Source: Sagittula sp. P11
Lineage (GTDB): Bacteria > Pseudomonadota > Alphaproteobacteria > Rhodobacterales > Rhodobacteraceae
Reading direction: 5' to 3'
DNA length: 64,000 nt
NCBI RefSeq assembly: GCF_002814095.1
Contig: NZ_CP021913.1
Span: forward strand, 2,824,001-2,888,000
Shown here: positions 6,280-14,912 of the stretch, piece by piece
Numbering within the stretch: the first letter of the stretch is position 1
How the letters are laid out: each line of letters starts with the position of its first letter
The notes under the pieces: model-generated
Database searches by the model: none
Seen by the model: only the letters and a program-made list of their open reading frames with translations
Told to the model about the DNA's origin: nothing
Program-made: the position numbers and the translations under genes

Positions 6280-6425
6280 CGTGACGGCCTCGGCGCTTGG
6301 GTTGGGGTGCCCCTGTCGGGAGCTACAAGATAAGGTGTTGCCCTGCGGACGCAAGCCCGCGCGACCGTCTTGCATGGCGGGCGCGGCGGGGGCATGACTG
6401 GTCAAGCGTGTGCGCGGAGGCCGTG

Positions 6426-7685
6426 ATGACGCCGAAGATCCTGACAACACTGAAAACCTACGACCGGGAGACCCTGCGCGCCGACGTGCTGGCAGGGATC
6501 ACGGTGGCCATGGTGGCGCTGCCGCTGAGCCTTGCCATCGCGGTGGCTTCCGGGGCCGGGCCGGAGAAGGGGCTGGTGACGGCCATCGTCGGCGGCTTCC
6601 TGATCTCGCTCTTGGGCGGCAGCCGGGTGCAGATCGGCGGCCCGACGGGTGCCTTCATCGTGGTGGTCTACGGGGTGATCGCCGAGCACGGCTACGACGG
6701 GCTGGTGCTGGCGACGCTGATGGGCGGGCTGATCCTGCTGGTCGCGGGCGCGCTGAAGGCCGGGCGGCTGATCCGTCTGGTGCCGGAGCCGGTGATCAAC
6801 GGCTTCACCATCGGGATCGCGGTGATCATCGCCACCAGCCAGTTGAAGGACCTGCTGGGCCTCGACGCGGCTGTCCCGGCAGAGTTCTTCGCCAAGCTGG
6901 GCGCCCTGTGGCAGGCACGCGGCGCGGTCAGCGGTGCGGCCCTGGGGGCGGGGATCGCCGCGATGGTGCTGATCGTCGCGCTGCGCCGGGCCTTCCCGAA
7001 GCTGCCGGGGCTGATCGTCGCGGTGGCGCTGGTCTCTGCCGTGGTGGCGGTGGCGGACCTGCCGGTGGACACCATCCGCAGCCGGTTCGGGGACCTGCCG
7101 CGGAGCCTGCCGCTGCCCGCAATGCCCGAGGTCACGCTGGCGCGGCTGGCGGAACTGCTGCCCTCCGCCCTGATCATCGCCTTCCTCGCCGGGATCGAGT
7201 CGCTGCTGTCTGCCATGGTCGCGGACCGGATGAGCGGCGGCCACCACCGCCCCAACGCGGAACTGCTGGCGCAGGGCGCTGCGAACGTCGGGTCGGCGCT
7301 GTTCGGCGGCCTGCCCGCCACCGGCGCCATCGCCCGGACGGCGACCAACGTGCGCGCCGGAGGGCGGACGCCGGTGGCGGGGCTCGTGCATGCGGTGACG
7401 ATCCTCGTGGTGATGCTGGTGGCGGCGCCGCTGGCCGGGTACATGGCGATGCCCGCGCTGGCCGGTCTGCTGATCCTCACCGCGTGGAACATGAGCGAAC
7501 CGCACCGCTGGGCCGCTTACCTGAAAGAGCGCCGCTCGGATCAGGTGCTGCTGGTGCTGACCTTCGTGCTGACGGTGGTGGCCGACCTGACGGTGGCCAT
7601 CGGGACCGGCGTGGCGCTGGGGCTGGCACTGCGCCTCGCCCGGCGGCAGGTGCCGGACGCCGACTGGGAGCCGCGCGACCGCTGA
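6426..7685 (+). CDS. SulP/SLC26-family anion permease
   Basis: This 419-residue, very hydrophobic protein matches the SulP family of inorganic-anion transporters (sulfate or bicarbonate in characterised members). It has the N-terminal DVLAGITVAMVALPLSLAIA segment, GSRVQIGGPTGAF, an IAFLAGIESLLSAMVADRM segment and GLPATGAIARTATN, all typical of the transport core. The C-terminal STAS domain that many family members carry is absent, so this is a short SulP protein. I used ATG 6426 because the upstream in-frame codons lie in the promoter region shared with the divergent DUF1489 gene. The ion carried is not evident. Confidence 0.87.
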   Translation: MTPKILTTLKTYDRETLRADVLAGITVAMVALPLSLAIAVASGAGPEKGLVTAIVGGFLISLLGGSRVQIGGPTGAFIVVVYGVIAEHGYDGLVLATLMGGLILLVAGALKAGRLIRLVPEPVINGFTIGIAVIIATSQLKDLLGLDAAVPAEFFAKLGALWQARGAVSGAALGAGIAAMVLIVALRRAFPKLPGLIVAVALVSAVVAVADLPVDTIRSRFGDLPRSLPLPAMPEVTLARLAELLPSALIIAFLAGIESLLSAMVADRMSGGHHRPNAELLAQGAANVGSALFGGLPATGAIARTATNVRAGGRTPVAGLVHAVTILVVMLVAAPLAGYMAMPALAGLLILTAWNMSEPHRWAAYLKERRSDQVLLVLTFVLTVVADLTVAIGTGVALGLALRLARRQVPDADWEPRDR

Positions 7686-7844: not shown

Positions 7845-10319
7845 ATGACTCGTTTCGCCGCGCCCATTGCCGAACAGATCTGGGACATGAAGTATCGCCT
7901 CAAGGAGGCGGATGGGACACCCGTCGACCTTTCGGTGGAAGACACCTGGCGGCGCATCGCCCGCGCGCTGGCGAAGGTCGAGGCGGAGCCGTCGGCCTGG
8001 GAAGAGCGGTTCTACGCCGCGCTGGAGGACTTCAAGTACCTGCCCGCAGGCCGCATCACCGCGGGCGCCGGCACGGCCCGCTCCGTCACGCTGTTCAACT
8101 GCTTCGTCATGGGCACGATCCCCGACACCATGGGCGGCATCTTCGACATGCTGAAAGAGGCCGCGCTGACCATGCAGCAGGGCGGCGGCATCGGCTACGA
8201 CTTCTCCACCATCCGGCCCAAGGGCGCGCCGGTCACGGGCGTGGCCGCCGACGCCTCCGGCCCGCTGTCCTTCATGGACGTCTGGGACGCCATGTGCCGC
8301 ACGATCATGTCCGCAGGCAGCCGCCGCGGCGCGATGATGGCGACCATGCGCTGCGACCATCCGGACATCGAGGCCTTCATCGGCGCGAAGTCCGACAGCG
8401 CGCGGCTGCGGATGTTCAACCTCTCCGTGCTGGTGACCGACGCCTTCATGGAGGCGGTGAAGGACGACGGCCCGTGGGAGCTGCAGTTCGACGGCACGGT
8501 CTATCACACCGTGCAGGCGCGTGACCTATGGAACCGCATCATGCGCGCGACCTACGACTACGCCGAGCCGGGGGTGATCTTCATCGACCGGATCAACAAG
8601 GCCAACAACCTCAACTACGTGGAGACCATCGCCGCCACCAACCCCTGCGGCGAGCAGCCCCTGCCGCCCTACGGCGCCTGCCTGCTGGGATCTGTGAACC
8701 TTGCGCGGCTGGTGGCCGAGCCCTTCACCGACGCCGCCCGCCTCGACGAGGAGGCGCTGGACGAACTGGTGACCTGCGCCGTGCGGATGATGGACAACGT
8801 GGTCGACGCCTCGCGCTTCCCCCTGCCGCAGCAGGCCGAGGAGGCGAAGAACAAGCGCCGCATCGGCCTGGGTGTGACCGGGCTGGCCGACGCGCTTCTG
8901 ATGATGGGCCAGCGCTACGGGTCCGAGGCCGCCGCCGATCAGGCCGAACGCTGGCTGAAACGGATCGCCCGCGCCGCCTACCTCGCCTCTGTCGAGCTGG
9001 CGAAGGAGAAGGGCGCCTTCCCGCTTTTCGACGCCGAGAAGTACCTCGCCTCCGGCAACATGATGGCGATGGATGAGGACGTCCGCGAGGCGGTCCGCAC
9101 GCACGGCATCCGCAACGCGCTGGTCACCTCCATCGCGCCCACCGGGACGATCTCGCTTTACGCCGGGAACGTGTCGTCGGGGATCGAGCCGGTCTTTGCC
9201 TACGCCTACACCCGCAAGGTGCTGCAGAAGGACGGCACCCGGACGGAGGAAGAGGTCGTCGACTACGCGGTGCAGATGTACCGCGCGGTGCACGGCGAGG
9301 ACGCGGAGCTGCCCGACTACTTCGTGAACGCCCAGACGCTGGCGCCTTTGGAACACGTCCGGATGCAGGCCGCCGCCCAGAAGTGGGTCGACAGCTCGAT
9401 CTCCAAGACGATCAACTGCCCGGAGGACATCTCCTTCGAGGACTTCAAGGAAGTCTACATGGCGGCCTACGAGACGGGCTGCAAAGGCTGCACCACCTAC
9501 CGCCCGAACGACGTGACCGGGTCGGTGCTGAGCGTGTCGGAAGACTCCTCGGCATCACGAATGAAAGTCGCCAGGAAAAAGGCCGGACTGACTCAGCAAG
9601 ATTTGGCGGCAGCTTTGCAGGTCAATCAAGCGACAATTTCCAAACTCGAGACCAGCGGGTTGGAGAAGTTTGGCAAAATAGAAGAATTGGCAACAGCCAT
9701 GAATGTCAGCGCTTCGTGGCTTCGCTTCGGCGAAGGCGTCCCCGAAGTCGTCGCCTCCACCGACGCCGAACCCCAGACTCCGCACGGCGACGTCATCTAC
9801 ATGTCCGAACCCTTCGACCGGCCCGAGCACCTGGAGGGCAACACCTACAAGCTGAAGTGGCCCGACAGCGAACACGCAATCTACCTGACGATCAACGACA
9901 TCATCGTCGGTGGACGGCGCCGGCCCTTCGAGGTCTTCATCAACTCCAAGAACATGGAGCATTTCGCCTGGACCGTGGCGCTGACCCGGATGATCTCGGC
10001 GGTCTTCCGGCGCGGCGGGGACGTGTCCTTCGTGGTCGAGGAACTGAAGGCCGTCTTCGACCCGCGCGGCGGCGCATGGGTGCAGGGCAAGTACATCCCC
10101 TCGATCCTCGCGGCCATTGGCGGCGTCATCGAGCGCCACATGATCGCGATCGGCTTCCTGGAGGGCGAAGGCAAGGGCCTGAAGTCCGACCCCACCGCCA
10201 AGGTCGTTGGCCTCGACGCCCCCCGCGGCAAGGCCTGCCCCTCCTGCGGCCAGTTCACGATGATGATGGTCGAAGGCTGCATGACCTGCGCCTCCTGCGG
10301 CCACTCGAAGTGCGGGTGA
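7845..10319 (+). CDS. nrdJ: adenosylcobalamin-dependent ribonucleotide reductase with an inserted XRE helix-turn-helix domain
   Basis: This 824-residue class II reductase makes deoxyribonucleotides with a B12-generated thiyl radical. The catalytic barrel spans roughly residues 1-560, with NPCGEQPL (Cys268), the allosteric-site-like N-terminal part, and SIAPTGTISLYAG. It is followed by GCKGCTTYRPNDVTGSVLSVSED, a TSCPD-type domain (about 660-790) and a C-terminal Cys motif (CPSCGQF ... CMTCASCGHSKCG). Between the barrel and the TSCPD domain, at residues about 573-636, lies a complete XRE/Cro-like helix-turn-helix: RKKAGLTQQDLAAALQVNQ, then ATISKLE, then MNVSASWLRFGEG. By hand count that stretch is near 50% GC, well below the flanking coding sequence. 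The reading frame is open throughout and both reductase halves look intact. Usual members of this short class are, to my knowledge, around 750 residues, so the excess equals the insert. Confidence 0.93.
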   Translation: MTRFAAPIAEQIWDMKYRLKEADGTPVDLSVEDTWRRIARALAKVEAEPSAWEERFYAALEDFKYLPAGRITAGAGTARSVTLFNCFVMGTIPDTMGGIFDMLKEAALTMQQGGGIGYDFSTIRPKGAPVTGVAADASGPLSFMDVWDAMCRTIMSAGSRRGAMMATMRCDHPDIEAFIGAKSDSARLRMFNLSVLVTDAFMEAVKDDGPWELQFDGTVYHTVQARDLWNRIMRATYDYAEPGVIFIDRINKANNLNYVETIAATNPCGEQPLPPYGACLLGSVNLARLVAEPFTDAARLDEEALDELVTCAVRMMDNVVDASRFPLPQQAEEAKNKRRIGLGVTGLADALLMMGQRYGSEAAADQAERWLKRIARAAYLASVELAKEKGAFPLFDAEKYLASGNMMAMDEDVREAVRTHGIRNALVTSIAPTGTISLYAGNVSSGIEPVFAYAYTRKVLQKDGTRTEEEVVDYAVQMYRAVHGEDAELPDYFVNAQTLAPLEHVRMQAAAQKWVDSSISKTINCPEDISFEDFKEVYMAAYETGCKGCTTYRPNDVTGSVLSVSEDSSASRMKVARKKAGLTQQDLAAALQVNQATISKLETSGLEKFGKIEELATAMNVSASWLRFGEGVPEVVASTDAEPQTPHGDVIYMSEPFDRPEHLEGNTYKLKWPDSEHAIYLTINDIIVGGRRRPFEVFINSKNMEHFAWTVALTRMISAVFRRGGDVSFVVEELKAVFDPRGGAWVQGKYIPSILAAIGGVIERHMIAIGFLEGEGKGLKSDPTAKVVGLDAPRGKACPSCGQFTMMMVEGCMTCASCGHSKCG
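9561..9752 (+). other. XRE-type HTH domain inserted in frame within nrdJ
   Basis: The segment begins at an internal ATG (MKVARKKAGL) and runs through a four- to five-helix XRE fold to WLRFGEGVPE. That ending is typical of the DNA-binding domain of phage CI/C2-type repressors just before their linker. Base composition drops to about half GC and codons change (AAA, CAA, TTG, GAA). No intein splicing motifs (N-terminal Cys/Ser block, C-terminal His-Asn) are present. The segment sits in the variable linker between the catalytic barrel and the TSCPD domain, so it may be tolerated structurally. A role in DNA binding or autoregulation is inference only. Confidence 0.85.
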
Positions 10320-11230: not shown

Positions 11231-12160
11231 TCATCCAGCCACGACCGGAGCCCGGTTAGTGTTTACGCCGGTTGGCGCAGGTTGAGCAATCGCCCGGCGC
11301 GCGGAGCTTTCATCTCGCGCAGCGGGGCGGGCGATTGCGGTGGTCAGGGTCCGCGCGTAGGCAGCCGGGGTCTGGTAATCCAAGGCCGAATGGGGGCGCT
11401 CGGTGTTGTAGTCCGTAGCCCAGGCTGCGATCACGATCCGCGCATGGGCCAGATTGCGGAACATGGTCTCGTTGAGCAGCTCGTCGCGCATCCGGCCGTT
11501 GAAGCTTTCGACGAAACCGTTCTGCATCGGCTTGCCCGGCGCGATGTAGTGCCATTCGACCCGGTGCTCGGAACACCACCGCAGGATCGCGTTACTGGTC
11601 AGCTCCGTCCCATTATCGCTGACAATCATGCCGGGCTTGCCGCGGCGCTCGATCAGGGCCGTCAGTTCACGCGCGACACGGCGCCCTGAGATCGAGGTGT
11701 CCGGGATCGCCGCCAGGCATTCCCGGGTGACGTCGTCGACCACGTTGAGCACGCGGAAGCGCTGGCCGTTGGCGAACTGGTCATGGACGAAATCCAATGA
11801 CCAACGGGCGTTCGGTCGCGCCTCGACCAGGATCGGTGCCCGCGTTCCGACCGCCTTGCGCCGCGCCTTCCGCTTGCGCACCGTCAGCCCTTCTTCGCGG
11901 TAGAGCCGATAGATCCGATTGATCCCCGAGGGCTCGCCCTCGCGGCGCAGCAGCACGAACAGGCGCCGGTAGCCGAACCGCCGACGCTCGTTGGCCAGGT
12001 CCCGCAACCGGCCGCGCAGAACCGTGTCCGGCGCGCGCTGAGATCGATAGCGGATCATCGTGCGATCCGCGCCGACGATGTGGCAGGCCCGCCGTTCCGA
12101 CAGGCCATGCTCAGCCTGAAGATAGGCGACGACTTCGCGCTTCACCGCGGGCCCTACCAC
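11231..12160 (-). CDS. IS3-family transposase OrfB (DDE integrase)
   Basis: The 309-residue frame carries the rve-type catalytic core of IS3 transposases: an N-terminal HTH_21-like part ([20 protein letters not shown]), [10 protein letters not shown] with the first Asp, [10 protein letters not shown] with the second, and [19 protein letters not shown] with the Glu. It is normally made as an OrfAB fusion by a -1 frameshift at the A6G run (minus strand of 12160-12166), where both frames meet. The GTG at 12160 is only a formal start. The gene looks intact. Confidence 0.92.
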
Positions 12161-12696: not shown

Positions 12697-13290
12697 TCAG
12701 ATCGTAGTTTTGGGTTTGCGAGGCCGCGGGGCCCATTTCTTCGCCAGCCGCTCGAAGCGTTCGATGATGGTGCCGGCCCCGGCATCCTCGGCGTCGAAGT
12801 CCCCGCCCGACCAGTGGACCATGTCCTCGTGCTGCTCGTGATCGGGATCGGCGAGGGCTTCGAGGAACTCTTCGTAGCCCCAGGCGCCGCCGACGTCCTC
12901 CGGTGGACAGGCCCCCGCGGCCTTCAGAAGCCGCGGATAGGTCACGCCCTGAGTGGCCTCGCCCACCCGCTCGATCCGGATGCTGTGGTCCCAGTCATCA
13001 CCGAAGTCGTAGACATACTGGATCGTCCTGGTGGCGGTCTGGTCGAGCAGCTTTTCCAAAGTCATTTTCTTCGCGTCCATGGGGCCGTCGTAGAACCCGT
13101 CCGGGTCGGGCATGCCCCAACCGGCATCCCCCACCCGGAACTCGTAGAGATGGGTGTCGGTCCAGCCCATGGCCGCTTGGATGACCTCATGCAGCCGGTC
13201 GAGCCTGATCTTCAGCGGCACCTCGATGTGGCGCATCGGCATTGGCTCGACGTCGTTCAAGATGATCCGGAGGCGGGCGATCAGGGTCAT
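12697..13290 (-). CDS. plasmid pRiA4b ORF-3 family protein, IS66 passenger
   Basis: This 197-residue protein matches the PRiA4_ORF3 family. It has an N-terminal IILNDVEPMPMRHIEVPLKI, RLHEVIQAAMGWTDTHLYEF, a YVYDFGDDWDHSI motif, and CPPEDVGGAWGYEEFLEAL near the end. The molecular function of the family is unknown. The ATG at 13290 overlaps the tnpC stop (ATGA), so it is translated with the transposase operon and lies inside the element's inverted repeats. This makes it a true passenger rather than a neighbour. Confidence 0.85.
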   Translation of the reverse strand: MTLIARLRIILNDVEPMPMRHIEVPLKIRLDRLHEVIQAAMGWTDTHLYEFRVGDAGWGMPDPDGFYDGPMDAKKMTLEKLLDQTATRTIQYVYDFGDDWDHSIRIERVGEATQGVTYPRLLKAAGACPPEDVGGAWGYEEFLEALADPDHEQHEDMVHWSGGDFDAEDAGAGTIIERFERLAKKWAPRPRKPKTTI

Positions 13291-14912
13291 GCGGCGATCC
13301 TTTGCCGTGTCGGGGACCAATTCCAAGGCAGGAGATCCGGCACCCGGGAGGCTGTCGTGCCAGGCAGCCGGGCGAGGACGTCGCCGAGCCAGGCCTGAGG
13401 GTCGACATCGTTCATCTTCGCAGTGACGATCAGCGAATACATGAAGGCGGCGCGGTCACCGCCGCGCTCGGAGCCGGCGAAGAGCCATGACTTCCGGCCA
13501 AGGGCCACACCGCGGAGTGCTCTCTCGGCCGCGTTGTTCGTCAAGCAGACCCGCCCATCCTCGAGGAAGCGCGTGAAGGCCTCCCATCGGTCTTTCTTGA
13601 ACATGTAATTGATCGCCTTGGCGACAGGATTGTGCTTCGACATCGTGCCCTGCTCGGCGCGCAGCCAAGCGTGCAATGCCTCAACCAAGGGACAGGACAA
13701 CCGGTGCCTGGCCTCGAGCCGGAACGTGGCATCATGGCCGTTGATCTGGCGTTCGATGTCGAAGATCGCATCGATCCTTGCCACCGCCTCCAGTGCGACA
13801 GGAGATATATCGTGGGCGGACTTGCCCTTGCGGACATTGCCCTTGATGTCGGCAAGCTCGAAGAACTTCCGCCGGGCATGGCTCCAGCAGAGCGCGCTTC
13901 CGGCCGGACCGGGATCACGATCGCCGCGATAGAGGTCGTTGTAACCGCCATAGGCATCGGCTTGAAGGATGCCCCGCCACCCGGCGAGATGCCGGTTCGG
14001 GTGAGCCATCTCCCGATCGCGCGAGAAGTAGAACAGCGCGGCCGGCGGCGCACCGCCCGCGAAGGGCCGGTCGTCGCGGACATAGGTCCAGAGCCGCGCG
14101 GTCTTCGTGCCGCCCCGGGCCAAGAGCGGCACCGTGGTGTCGTCGCCGTGCAGCCGCTCGGCGGCCAGGACATGGGCCCTGATCAGCGCATGAATCGGCT
14201 CCAGCGCAACGGTGCAGGCGCCGACCTGGTCAGCCAGGGTGGACAGGCTGACCTCGACACCTTCCTTGGCGTAGCGCTCGACTTGCCTGTTCAGCGGCTG
14301 ATGCTGGCCGAACTTCTCGAACAGGATCATCGCCAGCAGGTTGGGCCCAGCCCAGCCACGGGGCGTGGGATGGAACGGCGCTGGCGGCTGGCTGATCTTC
14401 TCGCATGCCCGGCAGGTGAACTTCTCGCGGACCGTCTGGATCACCTTCCACTGCCGGGGAATGACCTCCAGCGTCTCGGTGATATCCTCGCCCATCTTCA
14501 CGATGCGATCCGAGCCACAGCAGGAACAGGCCGTGGGCGCCGAAATCACCACGCGCTCGCGCGGCAGATGCTCCGGGAAGGGTTTGCGGGCCGGGCGGCG
14601 ACGCTCGAACCCCGCGACGGACGTGGTCTTCACTACCTTCTCGGCGGCGATCTCGTCTTCAGTGGCTGCGGCCTCGAGTTCCTCAAGCTGCAATTCCATC
14701 TGGTCGATCAGGCGGGCGCGGCGCTCGGAGCTGTGGCCATATTGCTCGCGCCGGAGCTTGGCGATCTCAAGCCGGAGATGCCTGATCATCGCTTCCGAGG
14801 TCGAGACCACCGCCCGGGTCTGCGCCAGCTCGCTCTCTGCGGCCTCGGCACGGGCCTCCGAGGCCGCAAGCGCGGCGCGCAATCTGGTGATCTCGGAAGC
14901 GGCATCTGACAT
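13287..14912 (-). CDS. tnpC: IS66-family transposase TnpC
   Basis: This 541-residue protein is the large IS66 DDE transposase. An N-terminal coiled-coil leucine-zipper region (about 1-90) precedes the conserved YGHSSERR segment, a zinc-binding part (CSCCGSDRI ... CRACEKI), and the catalytic core. The core shows HGDDTTVPLL and ADAYGGYNDLY (Asp residues) and LTNNAAERALR near the C-terminus (Glu). All expected blocks are present, so the element may be mobile. Confidence 0.92.
   Translation of the reverse strand: MSDAASEITRLRAALAASEARAEAAESELAQTRAVVSTSEAMIRHLRLEIAKLRREQYGHSSERRARLIDQMELQLEELEAAATEDEIAAEKVVKTTSVAGFERRRPARKPFPEHLPRERVVISAPTACSCCGSDRIVKMGEDITETLEVIPRQWKVIQTVREKFTCRACEKISQPPAPFHPTPRGWAGPNLLAMILFEKFGQHQPLNRQVERYAKEGVEVSLSTLADQVGACTVALEPIHALIRAHVLAAERLHGDDTTVPLLARGGTKTARLWTYVRDDRPFAGGAPPAALFYFSRDREMAHPNRHLAGWRGILQADAYGGYNDLYRGDRDPGPAGSALCWSHARRKFFELADIKGNVRKGKSAHDISPVALEAVARIDAIFDIERQINGHDATFRLEARHRLSCPLVEALHAWLRAEQGTMSKHNPVAKAINYMFKKDRWEAFTRFLEDGRVCLTNNAAERALRGVALGRKSWLFAGSERGGDRAAFMYSLIVTAKMNDVDPQAWLGDVLARLPGTTASRVPDLLPWNWSPTRQRIAA

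Follow-up and report, generated by a model that had tools for sequence, protein, structure and literature searches.

The nrdJ gene of the window (the whole stretch of DNA analysed here, 64,000 nucleotides from Sagittula sp. P11) encodes a short B12-dependent ribonucleotide reductase (RNR) which carries a Cro/CI-type helix-turn-helix (HTH) domain within its polypeptide, in the linker between the catalytic barrel and the TSCPD domain. Several unlike HTH types occupy this one linker site across the family Rhodobacteraceae, and it is highly probable that the NrdJ linker is a hotspot of capture and exchange which is fed by phage-type (S24/CI-like) repressors. The reading as a whole, in which phage-repressor domains are captured or exchanged at the linker hotspot and some of them are kept as putative DNA-binding heads, we hold tentatively, with slightly more doubt than belief.

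The gene (7845..10319, forward strand, as are all of its parts given below) translates to 824 residues with zero internal stops, and the preliminary description had rightly read it as open from end to end. With the NCBIfam model TIGR02504 (NrdJ_Z) the protein scores 603.7 bits, above the curated cut-off of 399.95. With PRK08665 (vitamin B12-dependent RNR equivalog) it scores 562.5 bits, below the curated cut-off of 961, which is also missed by the NrdJ of an insert-free congener (570.2 bits). An all-alpha N-terminal RNR domain (PF00317, residues 8-79, 7866..8081) is followed by the catalytic barrel (PF02867, match 3.6e-131, residues 85-552, 8097..9500), the TSCPD domain (PF12637, residues 668-766, 9846..10142) and a cysteine-rich C-terminal tail (residues 798-824, 10236..10316). 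The tail was recognised from aligned NrdJs, and its Cys 798, 801, 812, 815, 818 and 823 are invariant across 48 of them. The T. maritima NrdJ (1xje) was the first match both by sequence, with congener protein P0003 as the query, and by fold. By family model and barrel fold the protein is probably a class II B12-dependent RNR, with predicted catalysis. Another class II-like RNR frame, a long one of 1289 aa, is present in this genome (G000:C1:4504440-4506614) and is 33-37% identical to the short NrdJ, in segments.

A gene for a sulfate permease family protein lies directly upstream of nrdJ (6297-7685, forward strand). Downstream, on the reverse strand, two transposases are encoded, one with an integrase core (rve; 11231-12160) and one of the IS66 family (13287-14912); the preliminary description had remarked that the chromosome beside nrdJ is invaded by a transposon. 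The naming of these two genes gave no indication that the HTH arrived with them.

Based on congener alignment, PF01381 and fold, the extra segment covers residues about 567-631 (9543..9737, forward strand). Pfam HTH_3 (PF01381) matches residues 574-626, with 33.1 bits in the whole protein and 36.2 bits (E 6e-9) in the linker alone, the cut-off being 23. This match and the five helices predicted for the segment bear out a complete XRE-type HTH between barrel and TSCPD domain, as first described. All congeners compared (G001, G002 and G003) are without the segment. Relative to G003, which is 96% identical, the insertion amounts to net 62 codons; the two NrdJs are 96% identical over residues 1-570 and 97% over residues 632-824, and because the DNA on either side of the insert closely matches that of G003, the change does not extend beyond the linker. 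The alignment confirmed the insertion that the preliminary description had placed at 9561-9752, but moved its edges slightly upstream, to 9543-9737. The HTH core has a GC content of 52.1%, compared with 67.0% and 63.5% in the flanks, and a GC3 of 57.8%, compared with 93.9% and 86.7%; both values lie below those of the flanks, as the initial estimate of about 50% GC and unlike codon use had indicated. An ancestral, lineage-wide domain is ruled out for the genus of the window by its three insert-free congeners.

The AlphaFold model of the whole protein (48 sequences) has a mean pLDDT of 69.5 and is reliable in parts only. It contains five helices at residues 568-628, with the blocks of residues 571-630 at pLDDT 79-94, and its best fold match is the T. 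maritima NrdJ. The stretches on both sides of the HTH (residues 557-569 and 631-659) have pLDDT values below 50 and are predicted to be disordered. When the HTH domain was modelled alone, the mean pLDDT was 87.6 and the first fold matches were 434 Cro, 434 repressor and P22 c2 (TM 0.77-0.85 by query); the best E-value in this Foldseek search was 0.002, with no match below 0.001. By sequence, the insert matches the 434 repressor over 60 residues (E 6e-5). The C-terminal domain of CI/S24 repressors (PF00717) was absent from the window NrdJ at E<=1 in the Pfam scan. The predicted model thus has a five-helix, 434/P22-like HTH between two low-pLDDT tethers, which makes a DNA-binding head on two tethers likely.

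The linker site was surveyed in 394 Rhodobacteraceae genomes, nearly all one per genus, with the C-terminal part of an insert-free NrdJ as the query. A match was found in 356 of them, and the other 38 gave none for the short NrdJ at 1e-20. The 356 consist of 150 genomes with a listed match, 54 with split or weak matches that were fetched, 149 that were listed later, in which full-length matches span 762-900 bases and are too short for an HTH, and G000, G010 and G012. An HTH-like insert at exactly the same site was present in 49 of the 356, which is a lower bound because some matches are partial or remote (e.g. G146, G149, G332, G343, G354, G362, G378). What had been seen as one case is thus a recurrent, family-wide hotspot, and the 49 inserts at the same site rule out an assembly artefact. 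In 46 of the 49 carriers the reading frame runs unbroken between the end of the barrel and the TSCPD domain; the remaining ones are G012, with a frame shift, G138, with a run of unknown bases further on, and G203, whose gene is interrupted inside the HTH.

In a scan of 49 sequences (47 insert linkers and two insert-free controls), at E<=0.01 HTH_3 matched 41 of the insert linkers and left both controls unmatched. The G138 linker matched too, and among the rescanned inserts L125 (0.015), L126, L129, L150 and L159 gave no match at 0.01. The first four of these are of one type, 'TIAARIE', which is also present in L134 as a copy that exceeds the cut-off. By eye, all 46 distinct family linkers of at least 120 residues are HTH-like, and none of the linkers read with at least 50 extra residues was anything other than HTH-like. 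Among 80 named loci, a set biased through being picked by similarity to the insert-free query, Antarctobacter heliothermus (L100) was the one carrier.

The class to which the family belongs was sampled with 289 genomes, 112 of which matched. No HTH insert was seen in the 108 matched genomes of other families, a count limited by single matches that stop short of the linker (e.g. G039, G479, G480, G609) and by the unparsed linker of L242 (G680). Seven of these genomes had two matches: the linkers of G669, G558 and G475 were read and are without an HTH, the gaps in G516, G040 and G428 are too small for one, and G593 has its matches on two contigs. The NrdJ linker of G669 (L241) is made of a low-complexity repeated unit, '...RERSPDINLPAPLFEAPAPA...'.

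The HTH domains and the enzymes carrying them do not share one history. HTH identity is uncorrelated with barrel identity (Spearman 0.0003, 990 pairs from 45 inserts), although the pairs are interdependent and, between types, HTH identity has almost reached its floor. The HTHs were trimmed to their cores because clustering with the flanks merged 47 of 48 sequences via the common linker. As a rule, the most similar barrels carry dissimilar HTHs. The barrels of L152 and L153 are 90.6% identical and their HTHs 9.7%, and those of L118 and L119 are 88.3% identical with HTHs at 8.5%; among the 17 closest barrel pairs, L116/L149 is the exception (87.1% compared to 58.2% for the HTH). A tree of barrel and TSCPD domain was calculated from 127 rows with 45 carriers, the non-carriers being hand-picked (close relatives and listed rows), not random. 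On this tree the HTH label changes state 32 times, at least 7 of these changes being forced by starred branches; shuffled labels gave a mean of 37.0 changes, and 20 of 500 shuffles were as low as the observed number. This near-random result fits turnover, yet it provides no clean count of captures, and with 63 of 124 inner branches open gain and loss are not separable.

The 'PEVVA..AEP..PHGD' linker, found in the window at residues 632-649 (9738..9791; row comparison, low pLDDT), accompanies HTH inserts. In the rows compared, with kinship ignored, its PHGD form was present in 35 of 45 HTH carriers and in 17 of 78 non-carriers, including 14 of the 60 non-carriers picked from listed rows, and on the tree its presence switches 26 times. 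Genus g48 has an HTH in one of five species; this carrier has the PHGD 3' linker, absent in its four congeners, between flanks like theirs, a combination that is expected from exchange. In L134, two HTHs of different types stand in tandem within one NrdJ.

Some linkers have further peculiarities. A short 'ENTH/NTQ' motif follows the HTH in L124, L154, L157, L135 and L166, which bear different HTH types, and a run of Gly-Glu repeats follows it in L129. In G012 the frame shift (L006 3390-3500) comes immediately after the HTH, where the DNA is GC-rich; a similar stretch occurs behind the G203 HTH piece and a similar peptide behind the HTH in L163, and judging from sequence this common stretch may be a repeat element. 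In the split nrdJ of G203 (L171-L173, G203:C1:1010001-1060000) the break has HTH pieces on either side. The barrel part and the C-terminal part are separated by about 37 kb and lie on opposite strands, and next to each of them is a copy of one 475-aa transposase-like gene (labelled by eye). The arrangement resembles an insertion within the HTH with a subsequent inversion.

Several lines of evidence concern the source of the inserts. GC3 of the HTH is below that of both flanks in 41 of 45 cases (the exceptions are L002, L126, L150 and L162), with a median difference of 25 points to the upstream flank over the 45 inserts. The top phage matches of the window HTH are cI repressors, with phage D3 cI at 45% identity; in total 232 phage records matched, all below 60% identity. 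No donor was found in the genome itself, which at 1e-5 yielded NrdJ only, nor among other genomes at 1e-5, where 6 of 120 matched and the best match was another NrdJ insert (41%), and viral contigs gave zero matches. For another insert type a protein of Ruegeria phage 45A6 with the architecture HTH+S24 was found (37.7%, E 2e-3), and for a third type free-standing frames of 220-340 aa outscore an NrdJ insert left out of the model (best free-standing frame 3e-18, compared to 6e-15 for the G010 insert). Four standalone relatives were scanned: two have HTH+S24, one has S24 with no Pfam HTH at 1e-3, and one has an HTH without S24. Two other insert types gave no phage matches at 1e-3. PADLOC returned generic HTH matches (RmrA, capH, HTH_VI) and a weak Cmr5. 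Taken together, the cI matches, the 434/P22 folds, the foreign GC3 and the insert-free congeners support the capture of a phage-type repressor domain, which was the central proposal of the preliminary description.

Inserts of the same type differ in how they seem to have been acquired. Among non-TIAARIE inserts of one type the synonymous-codon difference is 1.01 of the saturation expectation (32 pairs; barrel 0.82), and among TIAARIE inserts 0.74 (10 pairs; barrel 0.83). The former look like separate acquisitions and the latter like descent within NrdJ; as the barrel is also close to saturation, the ratio is taken as supporting evidence only. Short NrdJ is also encoded on roseophages (Loktanella phage pCB2051-A, Roseobacter phage RDJL3 and Rhodobacter phage RcJoli, matches H56-H70) and on plasmids (of Ruegeria, Paracoccus, Cereibacter and others, matches H41-H48). 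A phage nrdJ as the vehicle of the domain was rejected: the four phage linkers and one plasmid linker read are all without an HTH.

We propose that new HTH alleles arise by capture of phage-type repressor domains into the linker, that recombination within the conserved coding flanks may carry them from one nrdJ gene to another, and that some inserts would be kept since their DNA binding persists. CI-type heads recognise palindromic operators in dimeric form, and class II reductases like the T. maritima NrdJ are themselves dimeric. A CI repressor owes its dimerisation to its C-terminal half; here the dimeric reductase could take over this role, and each enzyme would present two flexibly tethered HTH heads. 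Such heads might bind operators belonging to related temperate phages or elements, and thereby confer constitutive repressor-like immunity. Phage-operator immunity would explain the turnover of HTH types, and since heads are exchanged, their targets presumably change too, which is true of phage operators. Whether at least some inserts retain DNA binding seems to us evenly balanced, and phage-operator immunity, our leading idea for the function of the heads, is doubtful; both estimates were lowered because the insert type with signs of selection is a weak Pfam match. The widest form of the proposal, in which nrdJ of Rhodobacteraceae would be an interchangeable 'immunity slot' whose mounted repressor domains repress incoming related phages and whose turnover tracks these phages, is more doubtful still. 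A contest over nucleotide supply with NrdJ-bearing phages of this bacterial family is another possibility.

The inserts could also be neutral passengers, coming and going without function in a disordered linker that tolerates them, in one of two class II-like enzymes. We consider this rather unlikely for the inserts in general. The predicted disorder of both flanking stretches and the patchy presence on the tree would agree with it, as would the second, long NrdJ-like frame in the own genome, the absence of a short NrdJ match from 38 of the 394 family genomes, the G203 gene split within the HTH beside transposase-like genes and the low-complexity repeat in the linker of another family (G669). 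However, the long linkers are uniformly HTH-like, all 46 by eye and 41 of 47 by HTH_3, and random insertion would not give such a result. The TIAARIE type is moreover conserved at near-saturated synonymous distance, albeit as a weak Pfam match. Over 21 pairs among seven TIAARIE-type domains, from NrdJs of six genera, pN/pS is 0.16-0.62 for the HTH and 0.18-0.42 for the barrel, the HTH being under weaker constraint in 18 of these pairs; with synonymous sites almost saturated, the test is coarse. For 15 same-type pairs taken together, pN/pS is 0.38 for the HTH compared to 0.26 for the barrel, and part of this divergence may predate capture. In genus g157 both species examined keep a TIAARIE insert, with 29 residues identical from KPTNRD on. 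Purifying selection, as it appears from the sequences, makes a neutral passenger unlikely for the TIAARIE type. The type is acidic (core charges -2 to -14) and weak as a Pfam HTH, with the L134 copy above the cut-off, L124 and L125 below it, and L126, L129 and L150 unmatched at 0.01; the conserved trait may therefore not be DNA binding, which the TIAARIE type may have lost. The insert of the window is common to none of its three congeners and hence provides no within-genus comparison of selection, and for this insert a neutral passenger is possible.

Several HTH types at one site, and flexible tethers predicted on either side of the HTH, would likewise be expected if any DNA-binding domain served to keep dNTP synthesis near the nucleoid or the replication forks, with specificity of minor importance and the HTHs swappable. 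We regard such a generic tether as unlikely, with many inserts being neutral or acidic (mean core charge -0.7) and most relatives lacking any insert.

RNR genes are commonly regulated, and the fold of the insert is that of repressor DNA-binding domains, so that NrdJ might be a trigger enzyme which binds its own promoter via the HTH and reports the dNTP state to transcription. Control of its own promoter had been suggested in the preliminary description, but the promoter of the window lends it no support: the stretch upstream of nrdJ is identical at 114 of 129 positions to that of an HTH-less congener, and the single palindrome found there is common to that congener, with shuffles averaging 3.1. 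We consider autoregulation improbable. A scar left by a prophage or similar site-specific mobile element, which integrated into nrdJ and left its repressor behind, would fit the fixed site and the foreign composition but is very improbable, as the 46 intact cases hold in-frame HTH-like sequence and linker only between the halves, and the survey turned up no nrdJ split by a prophage, although one could hide behind fragments on separate contigs (G362).

In the accessible part of the open-licence literature we found no report of an HTH inside an RNR or of an exchangeable repressor head on a DNA-synthesis enzyme, and a term search of the available text of two RNR papers (PMC3019208 and PMC3653736) did not return 'helix-turn-helix'. 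If the reading as a hotspot for captured repressor heads is true, nucleotide metabolism would be linked to phage-derived DNA recognition, and the NrdJ linker would offer about 46 natural variants of the domain, all in the same position. It would also pose a testable question, namely whether captured repressor domains on host dimers are used against phages, in which case a host defence would have been built from repressor heads on a metabolic enzyme.

The closest known systems each share part of this arrangement. The DNA-binding domains of 434 repressor, 434 Cro and P22 c2 share the five-helix fold predicted for the window insert, but the NrdJ HTH lacks a repressor C-terminal half and is part of an enzyme. 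Two insert types have free-standing relatives among the S24/CI-like repressors encoded in related genomes and in Ruegeria phage 45A6, whereas the S24 domain is missing in the window NrdJ. The T. maritima NrdJ (1xje) has the same barrel and overall fold as the window-type NrdJ, although its chain of 644 residues matches query residues 83-563 only, and it differs from the window NrdJ, which has the HTH between barrel and TSCPD domain. To our knowledge, no known system resembles an interchangeable slot in an enzyme. PutA, BirA and NadR are metabolic enzymes with a fused DNA-binding domain which is fixed and terminal; in NrdJ, by contrast, the domain is internal, optional and changing in type.
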